Below are positions 2,770-55,465 of a stretch of DNA of 64,000 bases, in pieces. Source of the DNA: Thuidium tamariscinum (lineage: Eukaryota; Streptophyta; Bryopsida; Hypnales; Thuidiaceae); the NCBI GenBank assembly GCA_947034885.2, contig OX344753.2, forward strand, positions 25,932,347-25,996,346, written 5' to 3'. Position 1 is the first letter of the stretch. Each line of letters begins with the position of its first letter. Under the pieces are notes generated by a model. The model made no database searches, had not been told where the DNA came from, and worked only from the letters and a program-made list of their open reading frames with translations. The translations under genes were made by a program, and so were the position numbers.

Positions 2770-3870
2770 CTGAACGCCGCAACCCACTCCCTCGAAGGCA
2801 GGTTCTTCACTTCTTCTTGTTGCAGCGGCACTCAGCCGGCCGTCAGCCTTCTACAGCAGCCTGCAGCCCAGTTGGTCAAGCCCACCATTGCCGAAAATGG
2901 CAAATCCCCGGTGGGAGCGCGTGACAGGAAATGGCCGATCATGGTGCGACGAGCACTTGGACACATGATCGAGGGATGCGAGGGTTAAACAAATGCTAAG
3001 TTACTTAGCTTCGTCTCCCATGCCCACTGGTGCAAGACCTAGAAACTGAACGGTTGTGCTTCAAGCAAGCTACCTTAAACTGGCCAACAACTTCGGCCAA
3101 TTTTAAAAAGAATAAACGGAGAGTTGGCCACAAACATTTCCCCAAATACATAAACTTCGCCAAATCTTGAATGCGGGTTCCTAATTTTAGACAGGGCGGA
3201 GGATGAGTGTATGCTAAGTTAGTGATGCTAACTGAAGTTGTATGAACAAGATATGGATTTCTTCCACGTTCCGGGAAATTCCAGAGTATGAAAAACACGC
3301 AAAAGAATCACTACCACTGCTTTGAAGCTAGCTCCACGTACAAGACTCGTAGCCAGGCCGATGTAGATTTGGCTCCCACTGTGAGTAGGAGTAGGTCTCC
3401 AACTTGGAGGTCATCGATTGATTCTCCACAACTGAACTTAGCGGCCCTTGCCCAAGTTAATCCTGCAATCTCCCAAAGCAGGCGGAAATTAGGGTCCGTC
3501 CGACTGAACACCAAGCCAGCTACACTAGTTAATTCAGTTGAGCGTGACTGAAGCTGGCCTGGCTAGCTAGATCTCGATCTCCTCACTCCTCCCGTGCAAT
3601 GGCTGAACTGAATTCCGATCGAGGGAGCCTCGATCTGGGCCCTTGCATCCCTCGATCATGCCTCCCAAGTGCTCGGGGCTCCGATCCGCCACTCCCACCA
3701 TGATCGGCCATTTCCTGTCACGCTCTCCCACCGGGGATTTGCCATTTTCGGCAATGGTGGGCTTGACCAACGGAACTGCAGACTGCTGCTGGCAGACGAC
3801 GGAGGGCTGAGTGCCGCACCAACAGGAGAACGGAACCTGGCTGCCTCAATTCAGTGGCGGTGGCTGCTTG
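2770..3870. mobile_element. Foldback-type element with about 220-bp inverted arms
   Basis: The arms at about 2770-2985 and 3645-3870 are inverted copies. Shared blocks include TTGGTCAAGCCCACCATTGC, AAAATGGCAAATCCCCGGTG, GTGACAGGAAATGGCCGATC and CATGATCGAGGGATGC. The arms are GC-rich against AT-rich flanks, and a spacer of about 660 bases separates them. The spacer has no gene I recognise; small frames there overlap on both strands. Exact ends and target duplication were not found. Confidence 0.7.
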
Positions 3871-37055: not shown

Positions 37056-38269
37056 ATGGGCAGGCCGCAGCGGTTTCGAGGAGTGCGGCAACGCCACTGG
37101 GGCTCTTGGGTCTCGGAAATTCGACACCCGCTCTTGTACGTCTCTCGGTTCCCTGAGCTCGGAGAAATTGAGACATGGGCTTGTAATGTAATGTCATGTG
37201 GTAGAATTGGGTAGCATTTTCTTCTAGCTTGGAGATTTTGTAGTTGACTTGTGGTTCGTGGCTTTGAGCTTGCTCGCGTTTTGTAGCTCGTGTCGACTCT
37301 CTCGGGCTTTGCTCGAGCCTCTTGTGTTTTGGTGCGAATTTTGTGACTGAGGTGACTTGCATTGTCGTAGCTTAGCGACAATTTCTTGGGGGTGGGGTGG
37401 GGTGTTGTAGCTAGCTTAGAACGTTCGGCATCGGGGTGTTGTAAGAACGCGTTTGAGTGACATTAGTAGTGTCGTTGTAACGCGTTGGCGTGCGTTCTGT
37501 AGCAATGTCGAAGGAGCTCTGTTGTTTTGAGCTCGTTCTTTCAGTTTGGAATGATTTTGCTTTGAGAGTGTTTCAGCATTGCGACTTAGGAGTGACTAAT
37601 TTGAAGCGAAAGTAGCAGGGATTTGACGAGAGAGTTCATGTTGTAATTTGCAGGAAGACGCGAGTGTGGCTGGGCACTTTCGAGACGGCCGAGGACGCCG
37701 CGCACGCGTACGACGAGGCGGCGCGCCTGATGTGCGGCGTGCGCGCGCGCACCAATTTTCCTTACGACCCGAACGCGCCAAAGGGCCCAAACTCGCAGCT
37801 GCTGTCCGCAACGCTTAGCGCCAAGCTCCACCGTTGGTACCTCCAGTCACAGCAACAGGACAGTGTATCCCAGCAGCAACAGCAACAACAACAGCAAACT
37901 CCCCCGGCAACTAAACCCGCTACCACTAAAGACGCGCGCATGACGCAGTCGCTCACGTGCTTGTGCCTGGACGCGGAGCAATCCAACCTGGGCATTTGGC
38001 AGAAGAAGACGGGGCGACAGGCGGAAGCCAACTGGGTGCGCAACGTGCAATTCTCCTCGCTCCAGCAGCAACCTGAAAATTCGAGTGAGAGTCCGCGCAG
38101 CTGCATCAGCTCGCAGGAGGAGATGTCGGAGGAGGACAAGTTTGCCGCGGAGATGATCGAGGAGCTGCTGGGTCACAGCCCGGGATACTTCTTTAACTTC
38201 AGCTCGCCAGCCATGTCGGACTCCAGCTGCACTAGCCCCTGCTCCGCCATCACCGCCACCTCCGAGTAA
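37056..38269 (+). CDS. SHN: SHINE (WIN1/SHN) clade AP2/ERF transcription factor, two exons
   Basis: This gene encodes a 231-residue DNA-binding regulator. Exon 1 is 37056-37135 and exon 2 is 37654-38269; joining at the GT..AG borders restores the AP2 domain through an L27 codon split by the intron. The AP2 domain spans about residues 6-63, with the YRG element [20 protein letters not shown] and the RAYD element around [14 protein letters not shown] nine-glutamine run lies at 100-108. The middle motif at 127-160 ([19 protein letters not shown], then NWVRNVQF) and the C-terminal motif with MIEELL at 194-199 are the signatures of the SHINE clade (ERF group V), whose intron falls at this same place. 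Angiosperm members activate cuticular wax and cutin genes in the nucleus; that role here is inferred. The start is the first ATG and gives the clade's usual [10 protein letters not shown] terminus. It is GC-rich, unlike its surroundings, with no breaks. Confidence 0.96.
37136..37653 (+). other. Intron of the SHINE gene
   Basis: This 518-base phase-2 intron has donor GTACGT and acceptor TTGCAG. It interrupts the AP2 domain between the L27 codon's second and third bases. It is T/G-rich and contains no repeat copy that I recognise. Confidence 0.93.
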
Positions 38270-49007: not shown

Positions 49008-49927
49008 CCCCTTAAATTCTTTAACTATGTTTACTCCGAAAGCAATCAAAAACTGCCATTTCTAGTACCAATATCAAATTTTTTTTAGAATTTTTTTTTG
49101 AAATTTGTAACTATAGGATCTTGTAGTAAATTGGTTTGAAAACATGTAGAAAAGATTTCAGAGTTTTTCACCGTGTAGATTGCAAGATATTAGCATTTGA
49201 ATGCTCAAAAATAAAAAATTTCACCCTATGGAAAATAGGGTAGCAACTCTTTAGCGAGCAACAATCATATGAAAAATGGTTCAAAATGGTTGTGCTTCTT
49301 TGGATTCATTGTTGAAGCTAAGTAGGGTACTTGCCTAAAAAATTTCAAATTATTTGGAATTGTACAACATATAGTAAAAAAATAATAAGTAGAAAGAAAT
49401 AGCAAATGATTCAAAATACAAAATTGTTAAGAATTTTTTTAAGGAATTGATAAATGCCAATCTCAATGGTTGCAATGTTGTAATAAACCATTTACATCCT
49501 ACGATTCTCTTTTTTTATGAAAAATATTGAAAATTGAATAAAATAGATGACTTCAAAGTTTATTTCAAAGTAGAGAATCAATAACCACCTACAAACAAAA
49601 ACTCCTCATAACTTTTGACTCATTGATCAAAATGAAATGATTCAAAGCTTTCCAAACAAAGATAAATGAAGAAAATTAATCTCAAATTTTAGTTTTTGAA
49701 TTTTTTTTCAATCTACTTGAATTGCCCAATTACAAAAAAAAACCCATAATAGGCCATACCTTTTGACTCATATGTCCAAATGTCCTAAATTTTAGTGCAT
49801 TTGAAAGATATTCTTTCTCCCCACCTTGTATTAAAATTTGGGCATGAAATTTGGAAATCTCTAGTTACATGTGTTTGCCCAAAAAATAAACTATGTTGCT
49901 AAATTTAGTAGGTTGGTCTTTTAGGGA
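49008..49927. mobile_element. TTAA-flanked element T, 920 bp
   Basis: CCCCTTAAATTC and TTTTAGGGA are flanked by TTAA at 49004-49007 and 49928-49931. The length is within two bases of the copy at 24128-25049, and it shares AACTATAGGATCTTGTAGTA near the left end. Confidence 0.82.
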
Positions 49928-49931
49928 TTAA

Positions 49932-52079: not shown

Positions 52080-52530
52080 ATGTGAGTTTATTAAAGGGCA
52101 CTAGGTTGAGGTGGTTGGTGAGGTGCACCATTGGAAAATGAGTTTGTTTTTTGCGAAACTCTTTTGTTCCACTTCTCTATTAGTTTGAACATTTTTTTTT
52201 GTTTTTACTCATCTTTGAAGTTTTTGTCATCTGTGGTGTATGTCTTTTATTTTATTTTATTTGAGCTTTGTTTTTTGCAGAGTTTGAATCTAGAGCCTCC
52301 AAGTATCAAATTTTCAAAGAATCCACCTGCAAAGGCAAAACAAATGACACCAATGTCAACTAGTTCACAAGCACAACAATATAAAATGTGCCAATGTTCA
52401 AAATGTTAACAAATTCTTCATGACTAGTAAGTGAAAGGTTGTGAAAAAGGTTCTTATCCAAAAACCTCTTGTGAAACACGTAGCCTAAAAAAACTCTATA
52501 ACATGCTCTCCAACATAGTTAAAAAAGATA
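52080..52530 (+). other. Possible N-terminal region and intron border of the Rep pseudogene
   Basis: A T-rich tract ends in TTTTTTGCAG at 52271-52280, resembling a splice acceptor. It is followed by a proline- and lysine-rich frame (PPSIKFSKNPPAKAK) that stops at about 52407, just upstream of the first recognisable Rep block. It could be the remnant basic N terminus of the same gene. The link is positional only. Confidence 0.3.
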
Positions 52531-54080
52531 GATGTTAGTGTCACTATTTTTGTTAGAAGTGATGACATTCCATTGAGCTTCTGGAAAAGGTTGAGGACTT
52601 CTTTATCAAAAAGTGCATTTTTAGGTTGTATTAAATTGAATGTGGTGGTGTACTCTCTAGTGACTTCATATACAAATGGTTTGTAGATTGTTGACTTCTT
52701 ATGTTGCCTTAGTCAACAAATGCTGAAAATACTAGCTGGTTGGAATAATCCTAAGAATAACCTTACGGGGCACCACATCTTCACAAAAGCACTATGTAAT
52801 ACCAATCTCCATAATTTTATTGGAATGCTTGGCTATTGCATCAAAGGCAAAGGTCAAGATTACCTCCAAAATATTCAAAAAAATGTCAATTCTATTAGAG
52901 GGCAAATGCACACTATTGTAGTTCAATATGGAATGTCAAAGTTTTATATTTGTGGGATTTTTTCAAATTTCTTTAAATTCAAATATCCAATAATTGGAGA
53001 ATATAGAAGGATACATATTATTGTTGTATATTTGATGATCTATGAAATATTAAAAAGAACATTTGCAAAATTATTTACACTACATTTTGCAAAGGACTTT
53101 GAAATATACTCTTCACATAGTGTCATAGTCTATAGTATTAATGATAAAGACTCATTGATCTATTGGATACACAAATATTTGCAAAAAAAGGAATCATATG
53201 TTAATAAATATATACATAATCAAATGTTTTGATTTGAAAAATATAGAGTTGTATCTCTAAATTTGCAGATATGGACTAAATAAGTGTCATTTTTAAATAA
53301 AAAACATTGTTGATTTTTAGAGGCACATTAGACATACTTAAAATCAACTTTATACAAATCTATCTTATCAAAATAATTATAATAAATATTTATAAAGGTA
53401 GTTAAACTTTTAAGAGAATCAACTTTCATTATAATCAATTCTATTATCTATTGAAATATATCAAAATTTGATGTCATCTTTAAAGTTTTTTTATCTACAT
53501 AAATAGAAGAAATATCAATTAAATTTCTTCACCTTTTCTTTTAACACACTATGAAGAAATTATAAAGAAAAAAATAATTTAGAGGCTATATATCAAAAAA
53601 ATAAAATGGACTTTTATGAATGTATTTTTGCCAATTTTGATCCAGTGTAGTGTACATTCATCCTCAACTTGAAGGAGTTGACGAGTACATCAAATACGTA
53701 CTGGTTTTGCTAATGATGGATTTGTTTAAATTCATACAAATCTCATTGAAAGAGATCCTACATACTGTAGATACAAAATACAAAAACAACTCGACAGTAC
53801 TCTTCTTGGTACTCTCTTATCAATGCTCCAATTAAGACAATATATTCCCTCTGCTTTATAGGTTTTGCATGCCTATTAATGTCAAATGGAATATAGCAAA
53901 ACCTCTCTAAGCTTTGGAAGTGCATGATCAATCCACAAGCCATTGAAATGGATGACATGACTCAAAAATTCTTTGAGTACACATACCCTAGTTCCCACCT
54001 TGCAACATTAGGTTGACAACAACTTGTTGTGGAATTGGGAGAAGCTCAAAAAGGTGTTGCTCATGATTATATCATTCTAG
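52531..54080 (+). pseudogene. Decayed HUH-endonuclease (Replitron-like Rep) gene
   Basis: Fragments in all three plus frames, in order, match the block pattern I know for eukaryotic HUH Rep proteins of Replitron-type transposons. At 52551-52584 is a SDDIPLSFW block. At 52593 the next piece, EDFFIKKC, is in a shifted frame. At 52664-52675 LHIQ carries the second histidine of the HUH motif, but the codon for the first (52661-52663) is now TGA. From 52720 a 170-codon open stretch has GWNNPK, HHIFTKAL and GMLGYCIKGKG, where Y (52834) and K (52843) form the catalytic YxxK motif. Later blocks are MLQLRQYIPSAL at about 53823 and LWKCMINPQAIEMDDM at 53912. HUH enzymes nick single-stranded DNA and become covalently linked through the tyrosine. 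This copy is broken by several frameshifts and stops and must be inactive. Confidence 0.72.
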
Positions 54081-54294
54081 GTATTTTTCTAAATCCATTC
54101 TTGTTTAGTTGTTACCATTTCATTTCTTTTTTAAATTATGGAGAATTTTTCTTCAATTACATTCTTAACTATTTCTAAGATATTTAAAAAAAAAAATTGG
54201 AGGCTTCTTTTTTAGCAAATGGAATTCTAGTACACTCAAAACATAATCTAGACCATATCATAGATAGTCACACACAAGTACTCAATCTCATTAA

Positions 54295-55465
54295 CCCCTA
54301 CTAGGCCCAAGACCATTTTTGTATCAAAAATTGCTCAAAACTGCCATTTTTGGTGCATTCAGCCAAGAGAATCAAAAGAAAGTTAAAAAAAAATTCAACT
54401 ATAGTTGAGTTATTCGTAAAGTACTCTAAACTGGGGAGTAAACCCATGAGTTTTGTGAAAAAGCCGGTTGAGTTAAAAAAGTCGAAATAAAAATGGGTAT
54501 GAAACTTATTTTTCCATCAAAATGGTGCCTCAAAAATTTTGGTCCCCACTTTTGAAGTCGTGTGACATAAGTATCTTGCAAAAAAGTTTGACGCTTCAAC
54601 TATAGTTGCCTTCTCAACTTCAAAAAAAGTCATGCCCAAAGTGGAGTGGACTTTACAAATAACTCAAGTGTCTTATACTTTACTTGTCTTTGATCATGTG
54701 TTAAAATTTCATGAAGTTTGATCCTATAGTTTGGAAGATATTTGTGTTTAAAGTTGAAAAGAAGAGTTTTTTTGAATACTGACCTACAATTTTAGATGAC
54801 TTGGACTACCATCTATTGAGAATTTTTGCACTATGAACTTTGAATTAAAAAAAAATTATATTGAAGATTTGAGTTGAAAGTCTAGGAATTTTTTTTTTCT
54901 AAATGCTTGATTTTCACTCTTTAAAAAATTATTAAGTAGAAGTACATCTAAGATTTAAAGAAAAACTAAATCGTTAATGGCTCTAAGATGGTATTGAAAT
55001 ACAATGATCCCAATGATGAGATTCTTCTAGCAAGAAATTTTAACCTTATCAAGCAATTTTTTTTAAAAATTGTGAAAACTGCGTTTAAAAATGAATCCTA
55101 TATGTATTGTTTTTAAAAAAAGATGCTCAAATTGCCCGAAAAACAAGATTGTTCATAACTTTCACATAACTAATCCAAATGGAATGAATCAAAGATTTAC
55201 ATGTAGACAAAAATATTATCTATATGATAAAAATAATAATTTAATTTTTTTGAGGATTTATTTTTCTACTTGCTGAATTGAAATTTTGGCCTTTTGTGGT
55301 ATAGCTTTTGCTCCCGGGCACCAATTTATATACAAAAATTTATTTCCACATAGCTAATCAATTTTCCTATCTTATGTCAAAGTTTCAAAAAGTTTCAATT
55401 AAAATTGAGGTCATTGGAACATGAATTCCAAATTGTCTCCCGAGGGAATAATGAACTTTTAGGGG
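54295..55465. mobile_element. TTAA-flanked element T, 1171 bp
   Basis: TTAA at 54291-54294 and CCCCTACTAGGCCC; right end ACTTTTAGGGG with TTGA at 55466-55469. It lies about 210 bases after the Rep pseudogene. The region around 54960-55200 is an uninterrupted homologue of the interiors at 7000-7250, 58240-58640 and 60000-60310, so it serves as an empty site for insertions found there. Confidence 0.78.

Follow-up and report, generated by a model that had tools for sequence, protein, structure and literature searches.

Results

The transposase pseudogene and its state of decay

The window, i.e. the whole stretch of 64,000 nucleotides that was analysed (C5:25932347-25996346), carries on its forward strand, between 52,487 and 54,185, what is almost certainly a dead Replitron copy with another element nested inside it. 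Replitrons are eukaryotic transposons coding for a single-tyrosine nuclease of the HUH superfamily with a C-terminal partner domain. An earlier note had read positions 52531..54080 as one fossil gene of this kind. Six-frame translation recovered all the blocks that it named, SDDIPLSFW, LHIQ, GYCIK, YIPSAL and MINPQAIEMDD, in the order given, and the codons of the catalytic tyrosine (52834-52836) and lysine (52843-52845) were indeed intact. The proposed limits and the unity of the gene did not hold. Homology to other Replitron copies, followed by blastn, extends on the left to 52406-52487, weakly to 52224, and on the right to about 54185, while the stretch 52900-53663 belongs to an unrelated nested transposon. 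The features of the locus are collected in Table 1.

Table 1. Features of the Replitron locus, in window positions.
Feature	Position	Strand	Evidence
Probable N-terminal leader of the transposase gene (weak homology)	52224..52340	+	blastn to L012/L030 only
Replitron transposase pseudogene, HUH-domain portion preceding the insert	52406..52899	+	tblastn, DNA homology
LHIQ, HUQ-type metal-binding motif, H and Q intact	52664..52675	+	translation, family census
YCIK, YxxK motif with the catalytic Tyr; Y and K kept	52834..52845	+	translation, family census
Insert of a TIR DNA transposon (non-autonomous, 764 bp), unrelated to the Replitron	52900..53663	.	missing from L009/L010; TIRs of relatives
C-terminal, Replitron_C-like part of the transposase pseudogene	53664..54185	+	tblastn with L012b, DNA homology
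YIPSAL	53841-53858	+	translation
MINPQAIEMDD	53924-53956	+	translation

At the DNA level the window copy is 67-73% identical to copies L009, L010 and L012 of the same genome. Homology of the HUH part begins at 52406 with L009 and at 52487 with L012, and stops at 52887/52888. The leader region was matched by two copies only, L012 (67%, E 9e-5, from 52247) and L030 (64%, E 9e-5). The longest stop-to-stop ORF overlapping the range of the earlier note spans 52687-53229. The sole Pfam match of this ORF is Replitron_HUH (PF21859, E 0.002), but its 18.9 bits fall below the cut-off of 28.5. Taken alone, this sub-threshold match is suggestive of a Replitron origin. Neither PF21860 nor any other Replitron match appeared among the remaining window pieces, short C-terminal pieces included (9 window pieces submitted to Pfam), and other weak matches in window pieces, to Peptidase_C24 (E 0.19) and DUF1639 (E 0.049), were also below cut-off. 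We assign the window copy to the Replitrons because tblastn joins it to homologues that lie above the PF21859 cut-off. The ORF piece of L012 matched 52507-52890 with E 3e-25, and its C-terminal counterpart L012b matched 53668-54106 in three frames, with E 5.6e-35 in the table of matches and 2e-34 in the printed alignment.

Comparison with L012 also recorded how the gene evolved before it broke. Mismatches at the first, second and third codon positions amounted to 25/18/49% in the HUH part and 27/23/47% in the C-terminal part, and the same third-position excess was seen when L012 was compared with other copies, which shows that selection acted on the protein in this lineage before the gene decayed. 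Against L012 the window copy has three frame-shifting indels in the HUH part (52522-52887) and three in the C-terminal part, where in-frame stops remain as well. Its frames being broken, it is inert and no longer able to code for a transposase.

The Replitron set of the genome

The host is probably a moss: behind one atypical chain of 698 aa (9vfj), the best PDB matches of a PsaD exon of this genome (L049, 93 aa) are the chains 7ksq, 8htu and 6l35, from photosystem I of the moss Physcomitrium. The 363.2 Mb of the genome, in 19 contigs, were searched with PF21859, which gave 60 Replitron_HUH matches, 59 of them above the cut-off, compared to none in 14 control genomes. The window locus is absent from these 60. 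Its DNA homologues L009, L010 and L012 all exceed the PF21859 cut-off, L012 with 79.8 bits, and L012b matches PF21860 (Replitron_C) with 33.4 bits against a cut-off of 27; L016, L021 and L024 match PF21860 below cut-off. Further sub-cut-off Pfam matches in the relatives were to Rab15_effector (E 0.02-0.09), and several others lay at E 0.007-0.44. The HUH fold of the family is predicted from its Pfam assignment. Sequence searches of the PDB with the window ORF and with an alignment of relatives returned nothing relevant, and a scan of prokaryote genomes confirmed no relatives.

Trees of the HUH and C-terminal pieces were built separately, from 33 and 31 rows respectively, L015 and L030 being left out of the second owing to their short matches. 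In both, the window sequence falls within the Replitron set of the genome. In the HUH tree it belongs to a set of 16 rows (support 98/99) in which the nearest forks are open; in the tree of the C-terminal part it belongs to a set of 14 rows (100/99) and groups with L009 and L010 (95/90). It sits on long terminal branches in the two trees (0.28 and 0.26). The window copy is one among dozens of related Replitron copies in the same genome, and the earlier assignment to a fossil Replitron is borne out by the PF21859 and PF21860 matches of its homologues, by tblastn and by the trees of both pieces.

A TIR transposon nested in the gene

L009 and L010 align with the window on both sides of a segment of about 770 bp and show nothing in between. 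At least 43 stretches of the genome, the insert among them, match it (40 of 93 candidates scored). The terminal inverted repeats (TIRs) of its relatives begin GGGCAATTGCAAGCTA; by eye, L058 reads GAGC and one end of L060 is decayed. Flanking duplications of 4 bp were likewise recognised by eye, GATA/GATA in L057, AAAG/AAAG in L058, TATA/TACA in L060 and GTGA/GTGA in L061. The bounds of the window insert were set by the TIRs of these relatives, and its flanks read TAGA/TCAA, i.e. a decayed pair. An initial delimitation as 52888-53656 and a classification as CACTA-like were both dropped in view of the same TIRs.

The active-site motif is of HUQ type

A motif census was carried out on 32 copies of the 60 matches (L009, L010 and L012-L041). 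The histidine is conserved in 30/32 copies, the glutamine in 27/32, the tyrosine in 31/32 and the lysine in 32/32. The residue two positions before the conserved histidine is arginine in 24/32 copies and histidine in none, so that the relatives' motif reads R-[L/R]-H-[L/I]-Q. Since a histidine is absent from this position in 32/32 copies, the Replitron family of this genome has an HUQ-type motif, H-[L/I]-Q, both residues of which are preserved in the LHIQ of the window. As for the TGA that the earlier note had taken for the lost first histidine of an HUH motif, in the pairwise alignment with L012 it sits at a small indel in the arginine codon. The YxxK motif has one conserved tyrosine; two positions further on there is mostly I, V or M, with K next.

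Ends and anatomy of better-kept copies

Three copies, L042, L043 and L044, are 96-97% alike across more than 2 kb and have the 5' end ACTATCCTGGCAAAAGATGGCA in common. L042 and L044 also have the 3' end ACTATCCACTCAAAAGATGGCATAC in common; that of L043 was not found. In both L042 and L044 a short sequence is directly repeated at, or close to, the two ends. L044 has no obvious target duplication, and the flanks of L042, a copy spanning about 4.8 kb, have a near-repeat of about 20 bp in common when inspected by eye. Downstream of the transposase gene, each of the three carries an imperfect minisatellite whose unit length is about 80 bp (4088-4617 in L042, 4014-4459 in L043 and 4241-4773 in L044).

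A second pair, L046 and L047, is 93% alike; these copies begin CTATCTATGG and CTATCTATAG, and both carry GTGACTATCCACTC close to the 3' end. L046 lies within a minisatellite, and comparison of the neighbouring units by eye suggested a target duplication of 2-3 bp, where 2-8 bp would be expected of a Replitron. L047 lies between two 67-bp direct repeats (427-493 and 3247-3313) that are 95.5% identical and contain a palindrome ending CACTATC. The settings of these two copies possibly reflect a preference for repeat arrays.

On the sense strand, 7 of the 30 best copies carry the exact 14-mer GTGACTATCCACTC downstream of the gene, and none has it on the antisense strand; it was not found in the other 23 within the stretch available for each. 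In some copies the 5' end starts with the hexamer ACTATC, which is met again within GTGACTATCCACTC close to the 3' end. Some copies read GAGTG-ACTATC-CACTC at the 3' end, a possible 5-bp hairpin, and the folding of terminal hairpins was not significant (z from -1.5 to -1.0). Relatives and common ends, for which the earlier note had proposed a genome search, exist in the form of the 60 matches and of ends common to some copies, but those of the window copy itself were not found. Flank alignments seeking element ends stayed at z <3, and the terminal motif had 2 matches at 3 mismatches in the window versus 2.65 expected, the longer motif having none; neither approach revealed ends, terminal repeats or a target duplication of the window copy.

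Discussion

The enzyme of this family could be thought to derive from a Rep gene of a CRESS-DNA virus that was endogenized in this genome, as the Reps of such viruses also combine HUQ and YxxK motifs. Such an origin is nevertheless very improbable: the top Pfam match is Replitron, with Replitron_C in L012, no relative was confirmed in two IMG/VR scans (one with the window ORF, the other with the alignment of relatives), and the copies form families that are 93-97% alike and have common ends, a dispersal typical of transposons. Moreover, neither a helicase nor any Pfam domain above cut-off other than Replitron_HUH was found in ten further ORFs (≥90 aa) from L042 and L047. Helitrons are the other eukaryotic transposons of the HUH superfamily, and many of them are present in plant genomes, so that the window copy might be the Rep part of a truncated Helitron relic. 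This reading has an extremely small chance of being correct, as Pfam gives Replitron_HUH and no Helitron or helicase match in 9 window pieces, 7 ORFs of relatives and the 10 ORFs of L042 and L047, the copies have a single conserved tyrosine motif instead of two catalytic tyrosines, and direct repeats lie at or near the ends of the relatives. A chance resemblance of A+T-rich intergenic DNA, which the many stops and the non-Replitron nature of about half of the originally noted range might recall, is refuted by the tblastn control, in which the best of 13 reversed proteins reached E 0.87 against values down to 5.6e-35 for the true homologues, and is also contradicted by the DNA identity to other copies and the codon-position bias.

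A Replitron origin, in contrast, accounts for the HUH and C-terminal domains (both seen in L012), the single catalytic tyrosine, the direct repeats that L042 and L044 carry at their ends or close to them, the many dispersed copies and a host group within the published range. The window copy differs from known Replitrons in being dead and interrupted by another transposon, and L042, at about 4.8 kb, exceeds the 0.9-4 kb given in a 2023 review (PMC10741241). The same review, citing Craig 2023, lists Replitrons in liverworts, mosses, lycophytes and ferns, so that land-plant copies are less scarcely documented than the earlier note had supposed. The window copy is a new, dead Replitron, probably from a moss, a group of plants in which these elements have already been reported, and because mosses are in that list the known host range of Replitrons is unchanged. 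A Replitron relic has been confirmed from raw sequence in a chromosome-scale plant assembly, and the set of 60 matches from the same genome, some of them well kept and with candidate ends, provides a basis for testing the cut site of plant Replitrons.

By analogy with the HUH superfamily, the histidine and glutamine of living copies would hold a divalent metal, and the tyrosine of YxxK would cut one DNA strand and remain attached to its 5' end. This cut would probably be made at ACTATC, the repeat with which the 5' end of some copies begins and which GTGACTATCCACTC contains close to the 3' end. Replication would then peel the strand off, and its joining at a new site would result in copy-and-paste transposition, again as known from the superfamily. 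It is conceivable, if rather unlikely, that the Replitrons of this genome form a lineage combining an HUQ active site with one cut site, ACTATC, common to both ends and placed, at the 3' end of some copies, within the possible hairpin GAGTG-ACTATC-CACTC. If true, this would provide a concrete and testable model of the termini of plant Replitrons and would link them more closely to Reps of the CRESS type.

Other repeats in the window

Several other repeats surround the locus. From 50865 to about 51650 the window carries another repeat with at least 55 matches in the genome, itself included (40 of 577 candidates scored). The stretch 54291-55200 has a match in L045 outside the Replitron gene of that copy and was considered as the 3' part of the element. 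It is treated here as a separate repeat, because in L010 its orientation is opposite to that of the gene and in L045 its distance from the gene is very different. A MITE-like element whose inverted ends measure 28 bp interrupts it at about 54405-54667; one stretch of this element is 94.8% identical in L009. Further upstream, the repeat at 49286-49930 is 78% identical to a stretch of L011, where it lies between two parts that match the family of the nested insert. Rfam at gathering cut-offs and a tRNA scan gave no hits in the window. Finally, the ORF 37616-38266 has a sub-threshold match to the AP2 domain (28.7 bits versus a cut-off of 33.3) and probably belongs to a plant gene for an AP2/ERF transcription factor.
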